45,642 bases of DNA. It comes from Lachnospiraceae bacterium (GTDB taxonomy: Bacteria > Bacillota > Clostridia > Lachnospirales > Lachnospiraceae). The stretch spans positions 1-45,642 of the forward strand of contig JAIKXH010000071.1 of assembly GCA_024684215.1 (NCBI GenBank), in the 5' to 3' direction. The notes beneath the pieces were generated by a model, which did not search any database, was not told where the DNA came from, and saw only the letters and a list, made by a program, of their open reading frames with translations. How positions within the stretch are numbered: position 1 is the first letter of the stretch; each line of letters opens with the position of its first letter. The translations under genes and the position numbers were made by a program. This document shows positions 8,504 through 35,492 of this stretch, in pieces.

Positions 8504-8971
8504 TTGAAGATAAAAAAGATTATATATATAACCATTGGATGCATATGCCTTGGGCTGGGAGCTCTGGGAATTGCACTTCCTTTTTTACCGACAACACCAT
8601 TCTTCCTTGTGACGGCGTTTTGCTTTGCCAAAAGTTCAGAGAAACTTGAGAACTGGTTTAAAGGAACAAAATTATATAAAAACCATCTCGAGAGTTTTGT
8701 TAAAAAAGAGGGTATGCTTCCTCAGACAAAGGCGAGTATACTGATAAGTGTATCACTTCTTATGGGAATCGGGTTTTTCTTTATGGCTAAAAAGGAAGTA
8801 TGGATACCGTGTATAATACTTTCCGTAGTCTGGGCGGCCCATATGATTTATTTTCTTTTTATAGTTAAAACTATCAAACCCGGAGACGCAAATAAAACTG
8901 ATATAAAAGACGTTGATATAAAAGACGTTGATATAAAAGATGTTGAGAAAGACAGGGAAAACTATGTTTGA
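8504..8971 (+). CDS. YbaN/DUF454 family inner membrane protein
   Basis: 155 residues from a TTG start with AGAGGA 7 bases upstream. Three membrane segments; the N-terminal signature GCICLGLGALGIALPFLPTTPFFLVTA and CFAKSSEKLENWF are diagnostic of DUF454 (YbaN). Function unknown. The C-terminus ends in three DIKDV pentapeptides encoded by a 15-bp tandem repeat, an acidic/basic tail absent from the core family. It overlaps the following ABC gene by 8 bases, so translation is probably coupled to the exporter. Confidence 0.85.
   Translation: MKIKKIIYITIGCICLGLGALGIALPFLPTTPFFLVTAFCFAKSSEKLENWFKGTKLYKNHLESFVKKEGMLPQTKASILISVSLLMGIGFFFMAKKEVWIPCIILSVVWAAHMIYFLFIVKTIKPGDANKTDIKDVDIKDVDIKDVEKDRENYV
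8900..8944 (+). repeat. Three 15-bp tandem repeats coding DIKDV
   Basis: GATATAAAAGACGTT at 8900-8914 and 8915-8929, and GATATAAAAGATGTT at 8930-8944. The unit keeps the reading frame, so copy-number change would alter only the tail of the YbaN protein and the distance to the next start codon. Confidence 0.95.
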
Positions 8972-10889
8972 TAAAAGATTAATGAAAATGTGTCCCGAAA
9001 GCAAGAAATACATAGTGGGTAATATTGTATTTCAGTGGCTGGAACTGATGATGAATGCAGTGATGATATACATAATAGCCACAGCGGTGGGTATTATATA
9101 TGAAACAGTAAGCACTGCGGTTAAAACCGGCTCCGGAAATATTACCTTTAAAGACCTTGTGACAGGTGGAGGTGCAATAAACATATCAAACATACTTGTC
9201 GCGCTTTGTGTTTTGGTATTAACAATAATAATCAGATTCTTTACGACCAAGATGACTGCGCGCATGAGCTATATGGCGTCCAAAACCGTAAAGAGAGTAA
9301 TGCGCGAACAGATTTATTCAAAAATACTGAGACTGGGCGCGTCGTACAAAGAGCATGCTTCCACAGCAGAGCTGGTACAGGAGTCTGTGGAAGGAACAGA
9401 ACAACTCGAAAGCTACTTCGGACAATATGTACCTCAGTTTTTCTATGCATTTCTGGCACCGGTGTCATTATTTGTGCTATTTGGAATGGCCGGTAGCTTT
9501 AAGGTGGCAGCAGTCCTTCTTGTTTGTGTACCGCTTATTCCGGGCGCGATTATGATGGTACAAAAAATTGCAAAAAAGCTTTTATCTAAATACTGGGATC
9601 AGTATACAAAGCTGGGAAGCACATTTCTCGAGAATCTTCAGGGAATGACGACACTTAAAACATATAAAGCTGATGCTTTTAAAAATGAGCAGATGAACGA
9701 AGAATCGGAGCATTTCAGAGTTGTAACCATGAAAGTGCTGACCATGCAGCTCAATTCCATTATAATAATGGACTTTTTCGCATATGGTGGAGCGGCGCTC
9801 GGAATAGCGCTGGCTGTAAAAGCGTTCATGAACGAACAGATTGGATTAGAAAGCACTATATTTATGATACTACTGTCAGCTGAATTCTTTTTGCCTATGC
9901 GAAAGCTAGGCAGCTATTTCCATGTAGCAATGAATGGTATGGCGGCAAGTGATAAAATATTTAAATTTTTAAGTGAGCAGGAATCAGACGAAAAGCCTGA
10001 AATAATACCGGAATTGCCAAAAGCATCCGGCGAAAAGGAACAGATAAAAAGCTTTTATGGATGTGATTCGGTAATATCCCTCGAAAATATCACGTTCTCC
10101 TATGATGGGGAAAAAGAAGTTTTAAAAGAAGTTTCACTTGATATTAAAGAAGGAAACTTTGTAGGAATCGTGGGAGAAAGCGGAAGCGGTAAATCTACGA
10201 TAGCTTCCCTTATAATGGGACGTAATACGACAAATAGCGGTGTGCTTAAAATTTGCGGAATAGATATAAACCGTATTAATGAAGAGAGTCTGTTTAAAAA
10301 CATCACTTACGTTGGAATTGGAAGCATATTTTTTAAAGGGACAGTAAGAGAAAATCTTGCAATAGCTTTACCGGCTGAATATAGGAAGGAAATAAACAAT
10401 GAAGAATATCCTTCAAAAGACACAAAAAAATATGAAGAAATAATTTGGAACGCGCTTGAGAAGTGCAATATATCGGACTATTTCAAGGAACAGAACGGCT
10501 TAGATACTATGCTGACGGAAAATGCAGGAAATCTCTCAGGAGGCCAAAAACAAAGACTGGCTCTTGCAAGAGCCCTTATCCACGACTCCGGTATCTATAT
10601 ATTTGATGAAGCAACCTCAAATATAGATGTAGAGAGTGAAGAGGCAATACTGGATAGGATTAAGGTACTCGCTAAAACCAGGACTGTTATTATGATCACA
10701 CACAGATTGGCGAATGTAAAAGACGCAGATGTCATATATTGCATGGATTCGGGAAGAATGGTTGGCAGCGGAACCCATGAAATGCTTTCGGAAAGTTGCG
10801 ATACATATAAAAGATTGTGGGAAGTTCAAGATGAGCTTGAAAATTTCGGACATAGTGAGAACGAGAAAAAAGGAGGCGAAAACAAATGA
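8964..10889 (+). CDS. CydD-like ABC exporter subunit (membrane + ATPase)
   Basis: 641 residues from the ATG at 8964; an in-frame ATG at 8940 lies inside the repeat of the upstream gene and has no ribosome site. Six-helix ABC membrane domain (about 15-330), then a nucleotide-binding domain with Walker A GESGSGKST (404-412), signature NLSGGQKQRLALARAL, Walker B IYIFDEATSNID and switch ITHRL, all canonical. It resembles CydD of the CydDC thiol/heme-related exporter family and forms a heterodimer with the next gene product. The gene overlaps its partner by 4 bases (ATGA). No cydAB genes lie in the window, so a different substrate is possible. Confidence 0.85.
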   Translation: MFDKRLMKMCPESKKYIVGNIVFQWLELMMNAVMIYIIATAVGIIYETVSTAVKTGSGNITFKDLVTGGGAINISNILVALCVLVLTIIIRFFTTKMTARMSYMASKTVKRVMREQIYSKILRLGASYKEHASTAELVQESVEGTEQLESYFGQYVPQFFYAFLAPVSLFVLFGMAGSFKVAAVLLVCVPLIPGAIMMVQKIAKKLLSKYWDQYTKLGSTFLENLQGMTTLKTYKADAFKNEQMNEESEHFRVVTMKVLTMQLNSIIIMDFFAYGGAALGIALAVKAFMNEQIGLESTIFMILLSAEFFLPMRKLGSYFHVAMNGMAASDKIFKFLSEQESDEKPEIIPELPKASGEKEQIKSFYGCDSVISLENITFSYDGEKEVLKEVSLDIKEGNFVGIVGESGSGKSTIASLIMGRNTTNSGVLKICGIDINRINEESLFKNITYVGIGSIFFKGTVRENLAIALPAEYRKEINNEEYPSKDTKKYEEIIWNALEKCNISDYFKEQNGLDTMLTENAGNLSGGQKQRLALARALIHDSGIYIFDEATSNIDVESEEAILDRIKVLAKTRTVIMITHRLANVKDADVIYCMDSGRMVGSGTHEMLSESCDTYKRLWEVQDELENFGHSENEKKGGENK

Positions 10890-12550
10890 AAAAACAGAGC
10901 AAAATACGCATCCTTTTAAGAATGATAAAGCTTGTTAAACCACTTACAGGATACATGCTTTTAGCGATAATGTTTGGCACGGTAGGTTTTCTGGCGGCTC
11001 AATTTATTCCGATCATGGGTGGAAAAGGTATCCTTTCGGGGCTTGGTATCGGAAAAGAATTGGAGTGGTATAAGATTCTTTTAATATTGTTGGGGCTTGC
11101 GCTGACTAGAGCAGTTTTCAGACTGTCTGAACAAAGGATGAATCATTATATTGCGTTTACACTTCTTGCTATTATAAGAGACAAGGTGTTTAAGGCGCTT
11201 AGGAGACTGTGCCCGGCTAAACTTGAAGGACGAGACAAAGGGGATATGATTTCTCTGATCACTTCAGATGTAGAATTATTGGAAGTGTTTTATGCACATA
11301 CTATATCGCCGATATGTATAGCGATAATTACAGAAACTATTATGTGTCTGTTTATCGGAAGCTATCATCCGATCCTTGGAGTGGTGGCATTTTTTGCGTT
11401 TGTAACAATCGGAATAATGTTGCCGATTATTATTTCAAAAAGAAGCGGTGATCTTGGGGACAACTTAAGAGCCGGATCCGGTGAACTATCTGCACACATG
11501 CTTGAAAGTATACGGGGCGTTGATGAAACATTGCAGTATAATGCGGGAAGCAAAAGGCTTGAGGAAATTAATAAAAAAACGACAGCACTGTCTGAAAAGC
11601 AAAGCATATTAAGCAAGCTTACCGGAACCAATATAGCGCTTGCAAATACCTTTATATTATTGTTTGATGTAATAATGCTTTTAATTTCCGGATATTTATA
11701 TATAAGAGGCATAGTGGGATTTGACGGATTTATAATCCCGATGATAGCGCTTATGTCTTCCTTTGGGCCGGTTACAGCTTTATCTGCTCTCGGAACCACG
11801 CTCCAAAGCACAATTGCATCGGGAGCCAGAGTTCTTGCTGTTATTGATGAGAAACCTGAAACCGAAGATATTGCGGGGGAAGAAAATGTCGAATTTACGG
11901 GAGCAAACGTCAGAGGTGTCAGTTTCTCTTACCCTGCTACAAACAGCAAGGTTTTAAATGATGTGTCTTTAAATATTGCGAGGGGGAGCATCATCGGTAT
12001 CGTAGGCAAAAGCGGATGTGGTAAATCCACATTGTTGAAACTCCTTATGAGGTTTTGGAAAGTTGAGGAAGGCGCTATGGAAATATCCGACACAAATGTC
12101 GAAAAAATTAATACAGATAACCTTCGCGATATGGAGAGTTATATGACCCAGGAGACTCGGCTTTTCAAGGATACTATTGCCAACAATATAAGAATTGCAA
12201 AACTGGATGCTTCCGATGAGGAAGTTATAGAGGCATGCAAAAAAGCCTCAATTCACGATTTTATCATGACGCTTCCAAACGGATATGATACGCCCGTTGG
12301 GGAATTGGGAGATACTCTTTCGGGAGGGGAAAGACAGCGAATAGGACTGGCCAGGGCTTTCCTACACAATGCTCCGTTTATGCTGCTTGATGAGCCTACA
12401 AGTAATCTGGATAGTTTAAACGAAGCGGTTATTTTGAAATCTTTATATGAGTACTCCGAAGATAAGACAATAGTTCTTGTTTCGCACAGACAATCTACGG
12501 TACGTGTAGCGGATAAGACTCTATCCATGAGCAGTGGCAGTATGGTATAA
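10886..12550 (+). CDS. CydC-like ABC exporter subunit (membrane + ATPase)
   Basis: 554 residues. Membrane domain about 15-310 with the segment RRLCPAKLEGRDKGDMISLI and TSDVELLEVFYAHTISP, characteristic of CydC-type half-transporters; nucleotide-binding domain with Walker A GKSGCGKST (374-382), signature TLSGGERQRIGLARAF, Walker B FMLLDEPTSNLD and switch VSHRQ. Starts in an ATGA overlap with the CydD-like gene, with AGGAGGCG upstream, so the two are translated together as a heterodimer. Known CydDC moves thiols/heme-related compounds and supports bd oxidase assembly and NO tolerance in E. coli; the adjacent YgbA-like gene makes a redox/NO role plausible but unproven. Confidence 0.87.
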   Translation: MKKQSKIRILLRMIKLVKPLTGYMLLAIMFGTVGFLAAQFIPIMGGKGILSGLGIGKELEWYKILLILLGLALTRAVFRLSEQRMNHYIAFTLLAIIRDKVFKALRRLCPAKLEGRDKGDMISLITSDVELLEVFYAHTISPICIAIITETIMCLFIGSYHPILGVVAFFAFVTIGIMLPIIISKRSGDLGDNLRAGSGELSAHMLESIRGVDETLQYNAGSKRLEEINKKTTALSEKQSILSKLTGTNIALANTFILLFDVIMLLISGYLYIRGIVGFDGFIIPMIALMSSFGPVTALSALGTTLQSTIASGARVLAVIDEKPETEDIAGEENVEFTGANVRGVSFSYPATNSKVLNDVSLNIARGSIIGIVGKSGCGKSTLLKLLMRFWKVEEGAMEISDTNVEKINTDNLRDMESYMTQETRLFKDTIANNIRIAKLDASDEEVIEACKKASIHDFIMTLPNGYDTPVGELGDTLSGGERQRIGLARAFLHNAPFMLLDEPTSNLDSLNEAVILKSLYEYSEDKTIVLVSHRQSTVRVADKTLSMSSGSMV

Positions 12551-12586: not shown

Positions 12587-15148
12587 ATGAACAATAGAGA
12601 ATCACGGTCGGAATCTAATGCCGGCGGGGGCGCGCTTTTAGTTCTGATTGCCTTTACTGTTACTGCAATAATATTATTAGCGGAAATATTCGTTAGAGAC
12701 TGGGAAAGAATTGCAGTTCCTGTTGTTGTGGCTGCAATTGTGTACGCCTGGTACTTGAGCGTAATGCAAAAGTTCAGTGAGTCGTACAGGTTATTGTTTT
12801 ACACCGGCTCAATGATGGTTTGCTATTTCTTTTATGGTATTCACCAGACAAGTCTTGATGAATTGTCTGTTTCTATTCTTGTCATAATTCTTGTTTTTCT
12901 TGTCGTAAAGCATCGCGGTATTATTTGGATGACTGTATTTGCGTATTATTTTACGATCTTTTTTAACCTTGCAAAAGCAGGGGAATCGTGGCGCGAAATA
13001 TACAATATATCCGGTCTTCAGCTCACATTCCAGCTTGTGCTTGTGGGTCTTGCCGGAGCTGTTTCACATTTTATAGTTACAAAATTAAAAAATGAAAGAG
13101 TAAGCTATGCCGGTAAAATGGCAGAGATAGAATCTCAGAAGGAATTTGCCAGAGAGCAGACCAGAATAGTTGCCAAGGAACTCAACAATTTGGCAGACGA
13201 AATGAAAGGTGAGCTTTTGTTACTCAAAAAAGAAATGGGTGATAAATACGTCGATGAAAAGCTTCCTGATGAAGTGAGCGAAATTTTTTCATTGGGATAT
13301 AAGCTTGAGATGGAGCTGACCGATTTAAAAGATTTTTCCGACATGCTTAATGATAAGACATCAATAGAGCCGGAAGTTTATGAGCTTGGTGATGTTTTGA
13401 CAAGGCTTAAACAAAACAGAAAAGTATTCGGGGACATGGGCGGGCCCGGACTTATTTTTGATGTTGATCCCATGCTGCCAAAAAGAATGGTGGGTGACAG
13501 AGAAAAAATCCTCAAGATATTAAGGCATCTTATTCATAACGGAATCAGATATACAAAAAGAGGTTGTGTTCGTGTAAAAATATACGGAAGATTTCATGGC
13601 AGTAATTTTAATCTATGTATAGAAGTAAGCGACACGGGAATGGGTATAGACCAGGCCGACTTGGAGCGAATGCTTGAGCAGTTATCAAACAGAAGAACTG
13701 CGGATTACAGACCGGGAGGCCTCGGATTTGGATTATATCTAGTCAGCGGTTTTGTAAGAAGAATGGGAGGAGCCTTCAAGATAGAAAGCGAGTGGGGCGC
13801 CGGCACGGATGTGTGTATCAGCATTCCGCAGAGAGTAACAGATGCTGCGCCGTGGATGTCTTTTGACAAAAGGGCAGGTATATGTGTTGTTCACAAAGAG
13901 GAAGATTCCAAAAGTGTGGTATCGAACTATTATGAAGAGATGTTTCGTAATCTGTCGGAAAAGCTTGGAATCCCCGGATATAATTATAAAACCGAGGATG
14001 ATCTATTGCAGCTTATAGGAGCATACAAAAAGGTCTGTCTTTTTACCGAGATTGAAAAATACAGGTCAAACAGAGAGTTTTACGATAAATATAAAGAAAT
14101 ATTTTTGGTAGTTGCAGGAAACAGAAATGACAAGCTTCCCGAGAGAGAAAATATTCATCTTATGAGGCACCCTGTGGGAACTCCCGAAATATTACATGCT
14201 GTAGAACTGGCTGCCAATACTATTGACAGACGTCAAAGGGACGATGATAAGTGTGCTATCGTGAGCCTTGAGAATTTGAGTAGACGTGAAATAAGGTTGC
14301 ATGGCGGCCGAAAGGTGCTGATATGTACCGACAGTATGTCGGATATTCCGCCTGAAATTTCAAGAAATCGCGGAATTCCGGTTATCCCTTTCAGAGTTTT
14401 TACCGAGCATGCGAGCTTTATGGACGGGGTAGAAATGTCACAACAGTGCGCCCTTTCGTATTTTGAAGAGAATCGTGGGATACATTCCATGGCGCCTGAG
14501 GAAGAGGAATTCAAAAAGTTTTTCGAAAATTGCCTGAAATACGCTGATCATATTATTTATGTGAGCACGGCCAGACGCGTCAGCGTTGCTTATGACAGGG
14601 CTGTGAAAGCAGCAGCTAATATGAGCAGCGTCACTGTTTTTAACTCCGGTCAGGTATCGGGAGGAATAGCTCTTATGGCCATTATGGCTGACGAACAGGC
14701 CAAAATGGGAAAGGATTACGATGAGATAGTACGCTATCTTGAAAACATTAGGCCAAAGGTTAAAACATCTTTTCTGATTGACAATCTGGATCATTTGACA
14801 TATGTGGGAAAGGTAAGTAAAGGTATAGGAAAAATGTCACGTATTTTGACTTTGCATCCCATAATATCAATGAGACATGATGCAATGAAGGTTAGCGGCG
14901 CAAAGTTTGGTAATATTTCTAATGCCAAAGAAAGATATATAAACAGGATTTTGAGGCGTAAGCAAAAGATGGATGATGAGAGGATTTTTGTCGGAGCTGT
15001 AGGCTTTTCAAATAAAGAGCTCGTCGGACTCAATGAATCCATCATGGCCGAGGGATATTTCAAAGAAGTAATAATGCGAAGATCGTCCGCGGCTATTTCG
15101 CTTAATTGCGGTGTTGGAACGTTTGGGATAATTTATGTTGAAAAATAG
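12587..15148 (+). CDS. Membrane histidine-kinase-like ATPase fused to DegV domain
   Basis: 853 residues; GGAG lies 8 bases before the ATG, 36 bases after the ABC gene. Order: about six membrane segments (15-168); a helical dimerisation-like segment (about 175-265) with no histidine at all; a HATPase_c domain with N box HNGIRYT (Asn318), G1 VSDTGMGI (Asp349) and G2 GGLGFGL (377-383); a receiver-like segment without recognisable phosphorylation aspartate (about 429-545); and a DegV domain (576-853) with CTDSMSDIPPEI, SMAPEEEEF, VSTARRVSVAYDRA and VKTSFLIDNLDHLTYVGKVS. DegV proteins bind fatty acids. ATP binding looks intact but classical phosphotransfer does not. It may be a lipid-responsive sensor; the function is inferred. 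Confidence 0.85.
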   Translation: MNNRESRSESNAGGGALLVLIAFTVTAIILLAEIFVRDWERIAVPVVVAAIVYAWYLSVMQKFSESYRLLFYTGSMMVCYFFYGIHQTSLDELSVSILVIILVFLVVKHRGIIWMTVFAYYFTIFFNLAKAGESWREIYNISGLQLTFQLVLVGLAGAVSHFIVTKLKNERVSYAGKMAEIESQKEFAREQTRIVAKELNNLADEMKGELLLLKKEMGDKYVDEKLPDEVSEIFSLGYKLEMELTDLKDFSDMLNDKTSIEPEVYELGDVLTRLKQNRKVFGDMGGPGLIFDVDPMLPKRMVGDREKILKILRHLIHNGIRYTKRGCVRVKIYGRFHGSNFNLCIEVSDTGMGIDQADLERMLEQLSNRRTADYRPGGLGFGLYLVSGFVRRMGGAFKIESEWGAGTDVCISIPQRVTDAAPWMSFDKRAGICVVHKEEDSKSVVSNYYEEMFRNLSEKLGIPGYNYKTEDDLLQLIGAYKKVCLFTEIEKYRSNREFYDKYKEIFLVVAGNRNDKLPERENIHLMRHPVGTPEILHAVELAANTIDRRQRDDDKCAIVSLENLSRREIRLHGGRKVLICTDSMSDIPPEISRNRGIPVIPFRVFTEHASFMDGVEMSQQCALSYFEENRGIHSMAPEEEEFKKFFENCLKYADHIIYVSTARRVSVAYDRAVKAAANMSSVTVFNSGQVSGGIALMAIMADEQAKMGKDYDEIVRYLENIRPKVKTSFLIDNLDHLTYVGKVSKGIGKMSRILTLHPIISMRHDAMKVSGAKFGNISNAKERYINRILRRKQKMDDERIFVGAVGFSNKELVGLNESIMAEGYFKEVIMRRSSAAISLNCGVGTFGIIYVEK

Positions 15149-15160
15149 TGGAGACAAAGG

Positions 15161-16540
15161 ATGAAGAAGAATCCCTTAAAATGGCTTACCATAGTGTTAC
15201 TGTCTGCGGTAGCGATACTAAGTACAATTTCATACCTGTTTTACGGAGTGGATCGTGAAGAGAATAAAGCCCAGAATATTTTAATCGGTGAGATGGTAAA
15301 TGCTTATGTTATGGAAGATCTGTCCGAGGCAATAACCGTATCAAGGATGATGAGCCGGGATGAGACTTTGATAGAGTTATTGAAAGTAGAGAGCGTGTAT
15401 CCGCAAGACAGCATGGTCATGAAAATGCGAAACTACTTAAACTCTATACAGAAAAAATTTGGCTTTTCCTCTGTCTATACGATTTCTGATCAGACCCAAA
15501 AATATTACTCTTTTGTAGGCCTTAACAAAGTGATAGATCCGGAAAAAAATTCTACGGATATATGGTATACGATTTTCATGGAAAGCGGGAATGATTATAA
15601 GCTCGATTCGTCGGCTGATGAAGTGAACAGAGATAAACTGACTATATTTGTAGATAACCGGGTTGAAGATGAAAGCGGAAGTTTTCTCGGTGTTGTCGGA
15701 GTCGGAGTTGAGACGGAAGAATTGCAAAAAAAGCTGTCCAAATACGAAGAAGATTTCAGCGTGAGAATTGATTATGTGACTTCGGACGGACTTGTCCAGA
15801 TGAGCAGCCGTACCTTTGCTGCACATTCGTCGTACGTATCCGGAGTGAAACTCCCTGAAAAAAACAATACGGCGTTTGAGTACCAGACCTACGGAATAGA
15901 TGGGTTCGCAGTCGTAAAATATGTTCCTGAATTTGACTGGTATATGGTTATAAGAAGTGAATCGACATATAGTGCCATTGGTTATAACTATAAATTCTTT
16001 TTTGCGGAATTTGTAATACTTATGCTTGCGATTTCAGTTTTCGCAGTTGTTTACAAAAGTGTAAAAACAGAATCGGTACCGAGCAAAGCTATAAATCGTA
16101 ATGTAGATGAACTGACGGGAGTTTTGAACAGAGATTATTTCATAAGGGTATATGGAAGTAAGGGAACGTTAAACACCACTCAATATCAGAGCGTGTGTGA
16201 ATTTACGATAGATGATTTTGAATTGATAGAAAATACACCGGCATGTGACAGGATAATACTTTCGGTCGTAAAGACTGCCAGGGAATCATTCGGAAGAAAC
16301 AGCCAGATAACCAGATGGGGAAAGAGTGCGTTTGTTGTGTTACTCGGAGCACCTATTGATGAGGCTGAGGATGAATGCAAGAGTTTCTGCAAGCAGATTG
16401 AGGAAATCGGAGAAGTAACTGTTTCCGTCGGACTTACAAGCATAGAATTAAATGAGACACTAAAAACCAATTATTTCCGTGCTGCCAGATACATGTATCT
16501 GGTAAGAGAACTCGGTGGAAATAACGTAAAAAGAGGATGA
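15161..16540 (+). CDS. Cache sensor protein with degenerate GGDEF domain
   Basis: 459 residues. Membrane segment (about 9-28), outside Cache-type sensor (about 35-275), second membrane segment (about 282-302), then a GGDEF-fold domain (about 310-455). The entry motif DELTGVLNRDYF is kept, but the active-site GGDEF is replaced by WGKSA in TRWGKSAFVVLL, and the DLDxFKxIND substrate motif is lost. It should not make c-di-GMP; it may bind nucleotide or regulate a partner. It lies 12 bases after the DegV-fusion gene and 4 bases before an intact GGDEF gene, so all three are probably co-translated. Confidence 0.82.
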   Translation: MKKNPLKWLTIVLLSAVAILSTISYLFYGVDREENKAQNILIGEMVNAYVMEDLSEAITVSRMMSRDETLIELLKVESVYPQDSMVMKMRNYLNSIQKKFGFSSVYTISDQTQKYYSFVGLNKVIDPEKNSTDIWYTIFMESGNDYKLDSSADEVNRDKLTIFVDNRVEDESGSFLGVVGVGVETEELQKKLSKYEEDFSVRIDYVTSDGLVQMSSRTFAAHSSYVSGVKLPEKNNTAFEYQTYGIDGFAVVKYVPEFDWYMVIRSESTYSAIGYNYKFFFAEFVILMLAISVFAVVYKSVKTESVPSKAINRNVDELTGVLNRDYFIRVYGSKGTLNTTQYQSVCEFTIDDFELIENTPACDRIILSVVKTARESFGRNSQITRWGKSAFVVLLGAPIDEAEDECKSFCKQIEEIGEVTVSVGLTSIELNETLKTNYFRAARYMYLVRELGGNNVKRG

Positions 16541-16544
16541 TTAA

Positions 16545-18206
16545 ATGAAGTCTATTAGAACAAGACTGGTTGCCTCGTTTTTAGGTACAATATTAATACT
16601 GTTCCTGATATTGGCACTGATTGGCGTATATTACCAGATTTCGTCAATCGAATTGCACTCTTCTGAATCGATGAAGCTGCTCAGCGAGGAAAAAACAGGA
16701 GAACTGAATAAATATTTCTCCGGTGTGGAAAGAGCTGTGGATGTACTGGAGGAGTATATAAAGAATAATGTGGATATGCATGAGTACAGAATAAATTCCA
16801 CATACAGAGAGGAATTTTACGGGGAGCTCAAGGAGAATGCCGTAAATGCAGCCAGAGTATTGGGCAATGTAGAATCTGTGTACTTTAGGCCTGACCCTAC
16901 GAGGTATGGCGGCACCGCCGGATTTTTCCTCAATTTAACCAACAGCGGAGATTACGCGGAGCTGACACCGACCAATATTACAAATTATAAAGAGGACGAT
17001 ACCGAACATGTAGGTTGGTATTATGAGCCCATAAAAAAAGGAGGCCCTCTTTGGATGGAGCCGTACTCAAATGAAAACATAAATGTCTATATGGTTTCAT
17101 ATGTTACCCCGGTGTACCTTGGAAGAGAGTTTGTCGGAATACTTGGAATGGACATGGATATGACATTGATCCATGAGGTTATAGACCGGATAGATTATGA
17201 AAAAAGCGTTGGCTTACTCATGAGCGAAAACGGAACGCTTCTGTACCACAGAGATTATCCCAGCGGTTTACTCAGAACGGATTTCCCGGAGGAATTGCAG
17301 GCTCAGGATGAGTTCTTTACGGAAGCGTGTATAGGAACCGGCTATAACTATTCTTATATTGCGGGCGGAGAAAAATACCGGATAATATTAAGCCGTCTGG
17401 AGAATGGAATGATCCTATCCATATCGACGCCGGAATCGGAATTGTTCAAAACGAGAAATGCAATGCTTATAAGGCTTCTGGTGGTATTTTTCCTGGCACT
17501 TGCCATGATAATAGTGCTGTCGACGAGAATGACAAAAAGGATCGTGGAACCTATAGAAGAGCTGACTAACGTTTCATCGAGAATTGCCAAAGGTGAATTG
17601 GGCCAGGAAATAGAGTATCACTCAAAAGACGAGATCGGCTCGCTTGCGGACAGTATCAGAAAAATAAGTGTGGAATTAAAGGTCTATATAGATTATATCC
17701 ACGAACAGGCATATCTTGATGCAATGACAGGCGTCAGAAACAAAGCTTCGTATTTAGCGGAGGAAAGCAGGTTAGAGAGTCTTATAAGAGAGCGGATGGC
17801 ATCATTTACCGTCTATGTTTTTGATGTTAACGGACTGAAAAAAATGAATGACAATTATGGTCATGAGTATGGAGATATGATGATAAAAGATTCTGCTCAG
17901 GTCATAAAAGCAGTGTTTAAAGATAGCTATGTATATCGTATCGGCGGTGATGAATTTGCTGTTATAGCAAAGCATCAATCGGAGAATGAGATTAAAAGGA
18001 ATTTTGCAAAATTTGACGAAATGCTTGAGAATTTTAATCTGGAAAATGAAAAATATGAAGATGACCTTGCAATATCAAAGGGCGCGGCTGTTTATAATCC
18101 CGAAACCGATCAAGAATATGCATCAGTATTTGGACGGGCCGATGAAGATATGTATCACTGCAAGGCCGAATACTACAAAAAACATGGAGACAGGCGCCGC
18201 TCATAA
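16545..18206 (+). CDS. Cache-HAMP-GGDEF diguanylate cyclase
   Basis: 553 residues. Membrane segment (about 9-30), large outside dCache-like sensor (about 35-295), second membrane segment (about 300-322), HAMP (about 323-375, MTKRIVEPIEELTNVSSRIA), then GGDEF domain (about 390-545). The domain has DAMTGVRNKASYL, the substrate motif FDVNGLKKMNDNYGHEYGD and intact GGDEF at 467-471, so it should make c-di-GMP from two GTP. The usual RxxD inhibitory site before GGDEF is absent (FKDS). Four bases separate it from the degenerate GGDEF gene. The + strand terminator lies about 200 bases downstream inside the convergent gene. Confidence 0.92.
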   Translation: MKSIRTRLVASFLGTILILFLILALIGVYYQISSIELHSSESMKLLSEEKTGELNKYFSGVERAVDVLEEYIKNNVDMHEYRINSTYREEFYGELKENAVNAARVLGNVESVYFRPDPTRYGGTAGFFLNLTNSGDYAELTPTNITNYKEDDTEHVGWYYEPIKKGGPLWMEPYSNENINVYMVSYVTPVYLGREFVGILGMDMDMTLIHEVIDRIDYEKSVGLLMSENGTLLYHRDYPSGLLRTDFPEELQAQDEFFTEACIGTGYNYSYIAGGEKYRIILSRLENGMILSISTPESELFKTRNAMLIRLLVVFFLALAMIIVLSTRMTKRIVEPIEELTNVSSRIAKGELGQEIEYHSKDEIGSLADSIRKISVELKVYIDYIHEQAYLDAMTGVRNKASYLAEESRLESLIRERMASFTVYVFDVNGLKKMNDNYGHEYGDMMIKDSAQVIKAVFKDSYVYRIGGDEFAVIAKHQSENEIKRNFAKFDEMLENFNLENEKYEDDLAISKGAAVYNPETDQEYASVFGRADEDMYHCKAEYYKKHGDRRRS

Positions 18207-18224: not shown

Positions 18225-18677
18225 TCATGCTGACTTTTTATGATGACCAATGGTTACAAGATAAGAGATTGCTCCGATGAGCAAAAGAACAAGACCTACC
18301 GGAAAATAGTACTTGCTCAAATGACTTGTGGTGCCATATATATCTAGAGCACCTTTGACCATCGAGCCTAAAGTCAGAGTAAATATACCACAGCCATAGA
18401 GCTGCCCGGAAAATGCTCCGGGCAGTTTTTTTGTTTTGGAGTGAGAAATAATGACCAAAGGGAGGACTCCAAGAACAAGTGGGAACACAAATGCATAAAG
18501 CATAAAGCAGGAGTAAACTCCATGGCTGAAATACTCATATACAGCTCCGAACAGAACGCAAAACAAAGTCAGTAATAAATATTTGATTTCGAGTTTTGTC
18601 AGTTTGGTTATTCTTATATTCAGTAATCGTAATTCATCCGAATTTAGATTGTTAATATCCGATGTAGACAATGTCAC
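18225..18677 (-). CDS. Small multi-spanning membrane protein, unknown function
   Basis: 150 residues from a GTG start with AAAGGAG 6 bases upstream. A charged N-terminus of about 30 residues (NLNSDELRLLNIRITKLTKLEIK) precedes four membrane segments. I do not recognise the family. It overlaps the end of the phosphodiester glycosidase gene by 26 bases, so the two are translationally coupled and probably act together at the envelope. A + strand intrinsic terminator is embedded within its coding sequence (18402-18432), and the codons there (KKLPGAFSGQL) appear to accommodate it. Confidence 0.8.
   Translation of the reverse strand: MTLSTSDINNLNSDELRLLNIRITKLTKLEIKYLLLTLFCVLFGAVYEYFSHGVYSCFMLYAFVFPLVLGVLPLVIISHSKTKKLPGAFSGQLYGCGIFTLTLGSMVKGALDIYGTTSHLSKYYFPVGLVLLLIGAISYLVTIGHHKKSA
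18402..18432 (+). terminator. Intrinsic terminator embedded in the opposite-strand gene
   Basis: CTGCCCGG (18402-18409), loop AAAATGCT, CCGGGCAG (18418-18425), then seven T: a textbook + strand terminator. It lies inside the minus-strand membrane-protein gene and is the first good terminator for the operon ending at 18206. Confidence 0.88.
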
Positions 18678-27472: not shown

Positions 27473-28969
27473 GTGGATCGTGTTTACATTGCGATAGACT
27501 TAAAATCATTCTATGCATCGGTGGAATGCGTGGACAGGGGGTTAGACCCGCTTACGACCAATCTGGTGGTGGCTGATGCGGAGCGTACGGACAAGACGAT
27601 ATGTCTGGCGGTTTCGCCGGGGTTAAAAAGCTATGGTGTACCGGGCAGGCCCAGGCTTTTTGAGGTTATAGCAAAGGTTAGAGATATCAACGCGGAGAGA
27701 CGATTTAGAGCTCCGGGTCGCAGATTTATCGGGAAATCCATATATACCGAAGAACTTAATTTAAATCCCTCACTTGAGCTGAGTTATATTTGTGCGGTGC
27801 CGCGTATGGCGCTCTATATGAAGTACAGTACGGAGGTTTACCGTATATATTTAAAGTATATAGCGCCGGAGGACATTCTCGTATATTCCTGTGACGAGGT
27901 ATTTATGGATGTGTCAACATATCTCAACTTATACAAATGCTCCGCACACGAGCTTGCTATGCGTATGATAAGGGATGTACTGGGGAAAACGGGTATAACC
28001 GCTACTGCCGGTATAGGTACAAATATGTTTCTGTGCAAGGTGGCGATGGATATAGTCGCAAAGAAAATGCCTGCCGACAGTGACGGAGTCCGTATTGCAG
28101 AGCTTGATGAGAGAAGCTTTAGAGAAAAGCTGTGGGGCCACAGACCTATCACGGATTTCTGGCGTGTAGGAGGAGGAACCGCAAGGCGTCTTGAGAGACT
28201 CGGACTGTATACCATGGGTGATATTGCGGGTTTCTCTGAAATATGTGAAAATAATTTATATAAAACTTTCGGTATAAATGCAGAGCTGTTGATAGACCAT
28301 GCATGGGGCTGGGAACCGTGTACCATAGACTGTGTTAAGGAATACAAGCCTGTTACGAACAGCATTTCTTCGGGACAGGTTTTGACCAGACCGTACAGCT
28401 ATTCGGAGACTGCGGTTATTGTGAGAGAGATGATAGAGCTGCTCACGCTGGACCTTGTGAAAAAGGATGTGGTGACGAGCAAGCTTACGCTAACCATAGG
28501 TTATGAATCGTTAAAGGACCCGGAGGATATTAGAAAATATATTGGAGAGCTTGGGATTGATATGTACGGGCGACCTACGCCAAAGCATTCCCACGGAACG
28601 GTTAATCTTTTTTATAAGACATCCTCCACTAAACTTTTATCACAGGCGGTTATGTACCTATACGAAATGATTGCCAATCCTGATTTAAAGGTCAGAAGAG
28701 TAAACATTACGGCCTGCGATATTGTCCCTGAGAAAGATATATATGGGAAAAAAGAGTATGAGCAGTTAAGCCTGTTTGTGGACTATGATGAACTTGAAAG
28801 AAAACGAGCTGCCGAGGAAAACGCGAGAAAAAAAGAAAAGGCACTTCAGCTGGCAACTCTTTCTTTAAAGCAAAGGTACGGTAAAAATGCAATTTTAAAG
28901 GGAACAAATTTTTTGGAGGGCGCAACGACGATTGTGCGTAATAATCAGATAGGAGGACACAGAGCGTGA
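27473..28969 (+). CDS. Y-family DNA polymerase (UvrX/UmuC-like), copy 1
   Basis: 498 residues from a GTG start with AAGGGGG about 8 bases upstream. Catalytic-core motifs are AIDLKSFYASVECVDRG (first acidic residue and steric-gate region) and YSCDEVFMDV (second acidic pair); TGITATAGIGTNMFLCKVAMD is the palm/thumb helix-hairpin region. QLSLF at 431-435 is a beta-clamp binding motif. The C-terminus ends NNQIGGHRA. It carries out translesion synthesis after DNA damage. It is linked by a GTGA overlap to a YolD-like gene and preceded by a LexA box. A paralogue of the same length lies at 33996. Confidence 0.94.
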   Translation: MDRVYIAIDLKSFYASVECVDRGLDPLTTNLVVADAERTDKTICLAVSPGLKSYGVPGRPRLFEVIAKVRDINAERRFRAPGRRFIGKSIYTEELNLNPSLELSYICAVPRMALYMKYSTEVYRIYLKYIAPEDILVYSCDEVFMDVSTYLNLYKCSAHELAMRMIRDVLGKTGITATAGIGTNMFLCKVAMDIVAKKMPADSDGVRIAELDERSFREKLWGHRPITDFWRVGGGTARRLERLGLYTMGDIAGFSEICENNLYKTFGINAELLIDHAWGWEPCTIDCVKEYKPVTNSISSGQVLTRPYSYSETAVIVREMIELLTLDLVKKDVVTSKLTLTIGYESLKDPEDIRKYIGELGIDMYGRPTPKHSHGTVNLFYKTSSTKLLSQAVMYLYEMIANPDLKVRRVNITACDIVPEKDIYGKKEYEQLSLFVDYDELERKRAAEENARKKEKALQLATLSLKQRYGKNAILKGTNFLEGATTIVRNNQIGGHRA

Positions 28970-33904: not shown

Positions 33905-33995
33905 AAATACACTTTGAACTAATCAGTACAACTAAAACTAATCTGTGAAACTTTGAAACAGTCGCACTTTTGAAGCAAACTATGAGGATACTTTG

Positions 33996-35492
33996 GTGGA
34001 CCGAACTTACATTGCCATAGACCTTAAATCATTCTATGCATCGGTTGAGTGCGTAGACAGAGGTCTTGATCCGCTTACCGACAATCTGGTCGTGGCGGAT
34101 GAATCGAGAACGGAAAAGACAATATGCCTGGCGGTTTCGCCGGGCTTAAAGTCGTATGGCATCCCCGGCAGGCCCAGGCTGTTTGAAGTGGTTCAGAGAG
34201 TAAATGATATAAACGCGGAGAGAAAATATAAGGCTCCGGGCCACACTTTTACCGGTGTGTCCGTGAACTCGGAGAAACTAAAGAATAACAAAACACTCCA
34301 AGTAGATTTTGTACGTGCTGTTCCCAGAATGGCTCTTTACATGAAATACAGTACGGATATTTATAAGATATATCTTAAATATGTTGCGCCCGAAGACATA
34401 CTGGTATATTCATGCGATGAAGTATTTATAGATGTTACGACATATATGTCATTTTACAAGTGTACAGCTCATGAGCTCGCCCTCAAAATAATAAGAGATG
34501 TGCTTAATGCTACCGGGATTACCGCAACTGCAGGGATAGGCACCAACCTTTTCCTTTGCAAGATAGCGATGGACATAGTAGCAAAAAAGATGCCTGCAGA
34601 CAAGGACGGAGTCCGAATAGCTGAGCTCGATGAAAAAAAATACAGACAGGAATTGTGGGATCATAAACCGATAACAGATTTCTGGAGAGTGGGCGGAGGA
34701 ATTGCCAAAAGGCTTGCCAAGCTGGGGCTTTATACCATGGGTGATGTGGCGAAATACTCGGAGACCTGTGAGAATGTCTTATATGATAATTTCGGAGTAA
34801 ATGCCGAGCTTTTGATAGACCATGCATGGGGCTGGGAACCTTGCACCATAGAGGATGCCAAAAGCTTCAAGCCCCAGACCAATTCGCTCAGTCAGGGCCA
34901 GGTCCTGACAAGACCGTATGAACATGACGAAGGCGGAATTATAGTCAGGGAGATGGCTGAACTTTTAAGCTTAGACCTTGTGAGGGAGAAAAAAGAAACA
35001 TCGCAGATAATACTAACCATAGGTTATGAATCTGTCAGAGACGGAGAAAAGCTTCAAGGCTATACCGGAGAGGTGACAACCGACAGATATGGAAGAGCTG
35101 TTCCCAAGGCGGCACACGGGTCTGTGAACCTCGAATTTAAAACCGCTTCTACGAAGATTATAAGGGAAGCCGCTGCGAAGCTTTATGAGAAAATAACCGA
35201 CAGAAATCTATGCATGAGAAGGGTCACCATAGCGGCGGCAGACATAGTCCCCGAGGGTAGCACTCCTAAAATAGAAGAGTTTGAACAGCTTGATCTGTTT
35301 ATCGATTACGAAAAAAGAGACAAGGAAAAGCAGGAAGAGGAGATCTTTCTTGAGAGGGAGAAATCACTTCAAAAAGCTTCTTTGGAAGTAAAGAAAAAGT
35401 ACGGCAAGAACGCCATCATAAAAGGGACCGATTTGCTTGAAGGAGCGACTACAATTTCCCGGAATGCTCAAATCGGTGGTCACAGAGCATAA
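33996..35492 (+). CDS. Y-family DNA polymerase (UvrX/UmuC-like), copy 2
   Basis: 498 residues from the GTG at 33996, the same start as in copy 1; an overlapping TTG one codon earlier is possible. GAGG lies 8 bases upstream. Core motifs AIDLKSFYASVECVDRG and YSCDEVFIDV are intact and the clamp motif QLDLF falls at 431-435, exactly as in copy 1; it ends NAQIGGHRA. The two proteins are collinear over their full length and clearly related, with most differences in the little-finger and finger loops. No LexA box and no YolD gene accompany this copy, so it should be regulated differently. Confidence 0.92.
   Translation: MDRTYIAIDLKSFYASVECVDRGLDPLTDNLVVADESRTEKTICLAVSPGLKSYGIPGRPRLFEVVQRVNDINAERKYKAPGHTFTGVSVNSEKLKNNKTLQVDFVRAVPRMALYMKYSTDIYKIYLKYVAPEDILVYSCDEVFIDVTTYMSFYKCTAHELALKIIRDVLNATGITATAGIGTNLFLCKIAMDIVAKKMPADKDGVRIAELDEKKYRQELWDHKPITDFWRVGGGIAKRLAKLGLYTMGDVAKYSETCENVLYDNFGVNAELLIDHAWGWEPCTIEDAKSFKPQTNSLSQGQVLTRPYEHDEGGIIVREMAELLSLDLVREKKETSQIILTIGYESVRDGEKLQGYTGEVTTDRYGRAVPKAAHGSVNLEFKTASTKIIREAAAKLYEKITDRNLCMRRVTIAAADIVPEGSTPKIEEFEQLDLFIDYEKRDKEKQEEEIFLEREKSLQKASLEVKKKYGKNAIIKGTDLLEGATTISRNAQIGGHRA

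Follow-up and report, generated by a model that had tools for sequence, protein, structure and literature searches.

What is a protein that is built like a membrane histidine kinase, ends in a DegV domain and is encoded directly upstream of two GGDEF genes, and what might it do? The question is raised by a locus in the window, as we term the whole stretch of 45,642 nucleotides analysed here, from a contig of a Lachnospiraceae bacterium. The host of the gene is a gut-type bacterium. The features on which the argument rests are listed below with the evidence for each; A and B denote two types of hybrid histidine kinase described in the next section, and the window protein and its full-length counterparts in other genomes are referred to as chimeras.

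12587..15148, + strand: predicted pseudo-histidine kinase, chimeric, carrying DegV at its C-terminus, 853 residues (single ORF, Pfam, five other full-length cases)
12614..13090, + strand: membrane region, residues about 10-168, with 5-6 hydrophobic segments (hydropathy; resembles the A-kinase membrane region)
13103..13486, + strand: degenerate dimerisation/phospho-acceptor region, residues 173-300, with Lys197 at 13175-13177 (six chimeras aligned with 43 A kinases)
13493..13831, + strand: HATPase_c domain, residues 303-415, with N and G boxes but no longer an F box (Pfam, alignment)
13847..14224, + strand: conserved domain, residues 421-546, common to A kinases, family not assigned (hhalign, profile searches)
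14312..15145, + strand: DegV domain, residues 576-853 (Pfam, TIGR00762, PDB relatives 2dt8 and 4x9x)
15161..16540, + strand: 459-residue Cache-like protein with a degenerate GGDEF domain, RWGKSAF (Pfam, alignment)
16545..18206, + strand: 553-residue PDC-HAMP-GGDEF protein, motif intact (Pfam; GGDEF at residue 467)

Layout of the chimera and of its hybrid-kinase relatives

Positions 12587-15148 comprise a single uninterrupted ORF, with its ATG at 12587 and its stop ending at 15148, as the preliminary description, made from the letters of the window, had reported. An artefact or a hidden stop between the two halves was considered and ruled out, since five other genomes carry the fusion at full length too. 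Since the full-length layout is common to six genomes, the window's own included, the kinase-DegV architecture is real and more than chance. The other parts that had been described were likewise recovered: hydropathy gives about 5-6 membrane segments where about six had been counted, Pfam places HATPase_c at residues 303-415 (E 1.9e-19, 70.5 bits against a cut-off of 26.4), and the DegV domain at residues 576-853 covers positions 1-280 of the 280 in profile PF02645 (E 5.2e-40, 138 bits against a cut-off of 27) and exceeds the NCBIfam cut-off for TIGR00762 (151.4 against 99.7 bits). No HisKA or Response_reg match was found in the window protein at E 0.01 in Pfam, and among the best 25 NCBIfam matches the kinase models fell far under their own cut-offs. 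An AlphaFold model of the whole chain, built from five sequences (pLDDT 40.7, pTM 0.28), was too poor for use. The architecture is a direct observation; a function is something that we infer from it.

The full-length chimera architecture was found in three of 299 family genomes (G000, which is the window's own, G041 and G103). Genus searches gave two of 31 genomes in the window's genus (G000, G309), one of seven in that of G041 and three of four in that of G103 (G103, G714, G716), and among 391 class genomes the architecture occurred in G000 alone. Identity to the window protein is 30-50% for the five other chimeras. The search for the HATPase-DegV layout and its neighbours that had been suggested at the outset thus yielded five other genomes, together with the operon described below.

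A DegV domain at the end of a kinase is not confined to the chimeras, as 42 B-type hybrid kinases carry one too; many relatives have, in place of the chimera, an A and a B kinase encoded side by side. In an A kinase the membrane region is followed by HisKA, HATPase, then a domain without assigned family, a receiver and often Hpt; in a B kinase it is followed by HisKA, HATPase, a receiver, DegV and sometimes Hpt. The fetched stretches were chosen for matching, so the 43 A and 42 B kinases classified in them are not frequencies; two of the A kinases (L105, L106), whose membrane region was unmatched, were added by hand. By blast a receiver match was present in 42/43 A and 42/42 B, and an Hpt match in 34/43 A and 7/42 B. 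At least 43 of the 299 family genomes hold DegV in a non-chimera frame over 650 residues, according to a hand count for which part of the frames was read. The modules are also present in another family (G384, G459, G631).

B directly follows A in 39 of 43 cases, with a 4-base overlap in 21. The ORF upstream of A, in view in 42 cases, has a same-strand receiver match in 31, of which 16 also have a GGDEF match, and the two neighbours that were scanned, one upstream of A (L046) and one downstream of B (L009), are both REC-GGDEF-REC-HD proteins. The A/B loci may thus be regarded as a putative c-di-GMP phosphorelay module with DegV. At L045:6475-11957 and the other A/B loci the two kinases are adjacent, DegV forms the end of the second, and genes for REC-GGDEF or REC-GGDEF-REC-HD proteins are frequent neighbours. 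At G292:C122:113285-115700 lies an A/B-like region with several stops in the DegV part of the search row, which is possibly decayed.

Searches of open-licence PubMed Central found no paper on such a phosphorelay module, on DegV with c-di-GMP or on DegV with Lachnospiraceae and a response regulator, and no recognisable description of a kinase-DegV fusion was found there among the matches listed. The part of PMC3146951 that matched 'DegV domain' and histidine kinase concerns gene neighbours.

Losses, retained sites and origin

Alignment places histidine in the acceptor column of 43/43 A kinases and lysine in that of 6/6 chimeras, Lys197 in the window protein. A conserved acceptor histidine, sought in the helical segment, was therefore found replaced, and the earlier observation that no histidine occurs between the membrane part and the N box holds: after His161, at the end of the membrane part, the next histidines are His314 and His317 in the N box. 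The Glu right after the acceptor column is retained in 6/6 chimeras, the R and T of the RTP that follows are in place in none of the six, with Pro in two (L069, L100), and the F box, mostly F-Y-Q in A kinases, is absent from the chimeras. Receiver patterns were found in 35/43 A, 41/42 B and 0/6 chimeras and Hpt patterns in 25/43 A, 7/42 B and 0/6 chimeras, both patterns being strict, such that the lower counts do not mean absence. Acceptor histidine, receiver and Hpt have, as judged by these comparisons, been lost in the chimera.

The nucleotide site presents the opposite picture. The Asn318, Asp349 and GGLGFG (377-382) reported earlier are present, and Asn318, Asp349, Gly351, Gly353, Gly377, Gly378, Gly380 and Gly382 are invariant in 6/6 chimeras. 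All eight ATP-site residues checked are thus invariant, against 36 of 117 CA columns overall (p 4e-5, six chimeras). By sequence the chimera is a pseudo-histidine kinase, in which the acceptor histidine is replaced and the F box lost, and the predicted kinase fold and nucleotide-site motifs are kept. Since the phospho-acceptor is lost while the ATP-site motifs are conserved, nucleotide-driven switching without phosphotransfer, as had been proposed, is a reasonable reading. It is quite improbable that the protein is an atypical kinase which still phosphorylates, be it on Lys197 or elsewhere: the retained ATP-site motifs and the Glu that follows the acceptor column speak for it, but F box and RTP are lost in 6/6, save the Pro that remains in two, and the chain has no receiver or Hpt to take the phosphate.

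The segment at residues 421-546 had been described as receiver-like, which the searches did not bear out. It is homologous to the A-kinase segment (hhalign 99.7%, E 5e-27) and, with its 47 homologues, forms a family of about 125 residues (window 13847-14224) that in A kinases lies between HATPase and receiver. Response_reg matched none of the 48 homologous segments at E 1, and none of the 48 has any Pfam match at a meaningful score; hhalign against receivers gave a probability of 1.7, not above 20 column-shuffled controls (highest 2.1), and a PDB profile search with the family returned one match at E 1. An AlphaFold model of the segment from three sequences (pLDDT 49.4) was too poor for use, and Foldseek with this low-confidence model gave no match at E 0.001 or better and no receiver among the best 50. 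A KP motif near the end of the segment, and the strand-helix order seen in the poor models, would be compatible with a distant receiver, no more.

The front half of the chimera, including residues 421-546, matches A, and its DegV domain matches B. A carefully built HATPase tree (91 rows, of which L059_A and L100_C are flagged as long) nests the six chimeras within A as a single group (98/98); an A-only clade of 43 without chimeras was rejected (p-AU 0.024). The DegV tree, with 55 rows, separates seven stand-alone DegVs from a set made up of chimeras and B (100/99); within that set the chimeras are a single group (99/92) beside B (94/78, not starred). An earlier placement of the chimera DegVs within B, from a tree with four chimeras, was withdrawn, as the six-chimera tree with more B kinases places them beside B. 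The two trees indicate that an A-type hybrid kinase was the source of the front half and that the DegV domain is B-like, apparently closest to the DegV of the partner B-type kinase. A gene of the chimera type would result if a deletion spanned neighbouring A and B genes. Full B matches occur also in G041, G309 and G716; at E 1e-40 none was found in the incomplete assemblies G000, G103 and G714.

The DegV domain and its pocket

The window's own genome (2.79 Mb, 92% complete) holds seven DegV matches, one in a long frame of 865 residues and the others in frames of 293-333, and two Dak2/FakA-type matches, one of which (C45) has a stand-alone DegV match about 200 bases away. PDB relatives of the window DegV are 2dt8 and, at E 4.1e-18, 4x9x, which we take to be a FakB2-type structure. 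According to the accessible part of PMC8892158, Thr62, Ser95, Ser171 and His270 of FakB1 form a network with the fatty acid carboxylate, and Arg173, in the portion of PMC9136124 consulted, is conserved among FakBs and essential for phosphorylation; the portion of PMC11617999 available contains nothing on the carboxylate network or Arg173.

These positions were placed on the window DegV by motif, in a mapping of our own. Thr62 corresponds to Ser634, the sole carboxylate-network position at which a hydroxyl is kept. The serine pair is Ala662-Arg663; stand-alone DegVs have mostly Ser-Ser here (Ser in 6/7 and 5/7), and in the chimeras the first position is Ala in four and Ser in two and the second Lys in three, Arg in two and Ser in one. 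Ser171 corresponds to Val740. The Arg173 position, Lys742 in the window, is Arg in three chimeras, Lys in three, and Arg in 7/7 stand-alone DegVs and 22/42 B, while His270 corresponds to Asn840, which is Asn in 6/6 chimeras and 39/42 B and His in 5/7 stand-alone DegVs. The FakB combination of Arg173 and carboxylate network is, on this motif mapping, lacking from the window DegV, and the FakB1 model scores 43.8 bits against a cut-off of 350. By alignment, the fused DegVs have a common altered pocket. Most of the carboxylate contacts of FakB are altered in the window DegV, so that a fatty acid as its ligand is a guess; a role as FakA substrate is unlikely.

These residues also bear on the suggestion that the DegV domain serves FakA as a fatty acid carrier tethered to the membrane, with the kinase-like part as a nucleotide-gated anchor and acyl-phosphate as product. 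The two Dak2/FakA-type proteins and the stand-alone DegVs of the genome would suit such a carrier; the low FakB1 score, the replacement of the FakA-essential Arg by Lys and that of the network His by Asn argue against it, and we consider it improbable.

The GGDEF operon and a possible mode of action

The chimera gene comes first, followed by the 459- and 553/554-residue genes, in 5/5 readable loci (window, L041, L042, L069, L101); L100 was left out of this count, as its contig ends. Four of these loci have intergenic gaps of 12 and 4 bases, and L069 has gaps of 13 and 19. The GGDEF motif of the 553-residue protein is intact at residue 467 in the window and in 4/4 orthologues, and in the two loci that were scanned (window, L069) this protein has a HAMP and a PDC or Cache match and the 459-residue protein a weak Cache match. 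In the latter protein the motif is degenerate in 5/5 chimera operons (RWGKSAF, RWNSNSF, RWNRSSF, RWNNSAF and RWNRSAF). By motif, the conserved operon pairs one GGDEF protein without the signature with one that has it.

A family search with the 459-residue protein (397 genomes, E 1e-20) gave matches in 32. In G002 (L122:7122-11539) a 459/553 pair with both GGDEF motifs intact stands behind a 451-residue dCache protein, with no chimera; for a true pair, five chimera operons are therefore contrasted with a single locus. This pair is followed by a two-component-propeller HD protein. Seven of the 12 non-chimera loci of the 459 type (L110-L121) align over the GGDEF region, and six keep the motif (L110, which is the G002 gene, L113, L114, L115, L118 and L121), as do the short relatives L123 and L124. 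Loss of the motif is the rule in chimera operons but not peculiar to them, as L119, outside these operons, has lost it as well. At L125:810-3467 a 459-like Cache region is joined to HisKA-HATPase-receiver-Hpt, and the 459-type sensor region is therefore also used in kinases.

The motif losses in both the kinase and the 459-residue protein could point to a decaying, non-functional relic of an A/B pair. This is very improbable: the frames are open and the operon order is kept in distant genomes, at 30-50% identity, and ATP-site residues are retained above expectation. Identity to the window ranks G041, G714, G103 and G309 in this order for the chimera, the 459- and the 553-residue protein, G103 and G309 being nearly tied for the last. 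Because the ranking is alike for all three genes, the operon looks as if it had moved as a unit. The G309 chimera, from the window's own genus, is less similar to the window's than are those of G041, G103 and G714. RpoB was compared for G041, G103 and G714 only, with no RpoB match found in G309 and G716.

Several further observations were made around the operon. A strong terminator-like hairpin at window 18398-18429 (+ strand) would suit an operon end; it lies within a 150-residue minus-strand ORF (18225-18677), which may for this reason be no gene. ABC exporter genes occur near the chimera operon in 4/5 readable loci, a possible association, and were left out of the unit because their position differs: in the window a CydD/CydC-like pair (8504-12550), below the Cyd cut-offs and after a DUF454 gene, lies just upstream of the chimera, at L041:1-2660 ABC ORFs lie 5 kb upstream of the operon, at L042:14440-16230 and L101:13071-14843 an ABC ORF directly follows the 553 gene, and in L069 no ABC exporter matched. 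Elsewhere in the window, two Y-family polymerase genes (27473-28969 and 33993-35492; 498 and 499 residues) lie about 5 kb apart.

The conserved operon indicates co-expression, not contact. Of the earlier proposal that the protein couples lipid status to c-di-GMP, the link to c-di-GMP genes is strengthened by the operon in 5/5 loci, and fatty-acid binding is not supported, the FakB contacts being mostly changed. We tentatively favour, as plausible though short of probable, the reading that a pseudo-histidine kinase in the membrane, with DegV as its sensor domain, controls the live cyclase of its operon by contact. At the membrane face, the DegV domain would bind a lipid or some other ligand. 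The helical stalk of the dimer would shift with the occupancy by ligand and by nucleotide, and the change would reach the 459-residue pseudo-cyclase and the 553-residue cyclase by direct contact, altering c-di-GMP synthesis. Protein contact would thereby replace the phosphorelay to a response regulator of the A/B modules. A bolder form, which we hold to be doubtful, is that a two-gene phosphorelay was compacted to a phosphate-free sensor that, with a pseudo-diguanylate cyclase from its own operon, allosterically drives a single live cyclase, such that DegV ligand and nucleotide status set c-di-GMP by contact alone.

An alternative, itself rather unlikely, is that the chimera partners other histidine kinases or a response regulator encoded elsewhere in the genome, with DegV as input and the GGDEF genes merely co-transcribed. 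Its model is the pseudokinase DivL, which has Tyr in place of the His and, in the part of PMC4211667 available, reads a phosphorylated regulator, and candidate partners would be at hand in the window's own genome, with its many hybrid-kinase matches (19 for the B query at E 1e-40). Against it, the ORFs in view around the chimera gave no receiver match in 4/5 loci, the exception being L042, where a kinase-receiver ORF lies upstream, and the conserved neighbours are GGDEF genes. On the favoured reading, control of the cyclase by contact, DegV, known from fatty acid metabolism, would enter bacterial signal transduction. A/B pairs, often beside c-di-GMP response regulators, and the derived operon, whose kinase has lost phosphate chemistry and kept the ATP-site motifs, form a natural before-and-after series, and the role of ATP in pseudo-histidine kinases is therefore directly testable.

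Among known systems, the window protein has a full-length DegV domain like the FakB/DegV fatty-acid-binding proteins; unlike in FakB, this is fused to a kinase core, and the Ser pair, the His and the Arg (the last in the window) are changed. The 553-residue protein resembles DgcN/YfiN in its HAMP-GGDEF layout (best NCBIfam match, E 9.5e-31) and differs in its score (107 bits against a cut-off of 325) and its PDC sensor. DgcN/YfiN has partners other than those of the 553-residue gene. The A/B hybrid kinases are nearer: A has the chimera's membrane region, HATPase and 421-546-type domain and B the same kind of C-terminal DegV, although both keep the HisKA histidine and receivers, which the chimera lacks, and often stand beside receiver genes, whereas the chimera stands beside GGDEF membrane proteins. 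In DivL of Caulobacter, as described in the accessible part of PMC4211667, the acceptor His is replaced by Tyr and the kinase fold kept. The acceptor His is likewise replaced in the window protein, whose HATPase matches the DivL structure 4q20 (E 3.6e-6). Apart from the His, DivL still has its H, N, G1, F and G2 boxes, and it carries PAS sensors, whereas the window protein is without F box and RTP and its extra domain is DegV. By analogy, DivL would be the closest precedent for a transmitter turned sensor.
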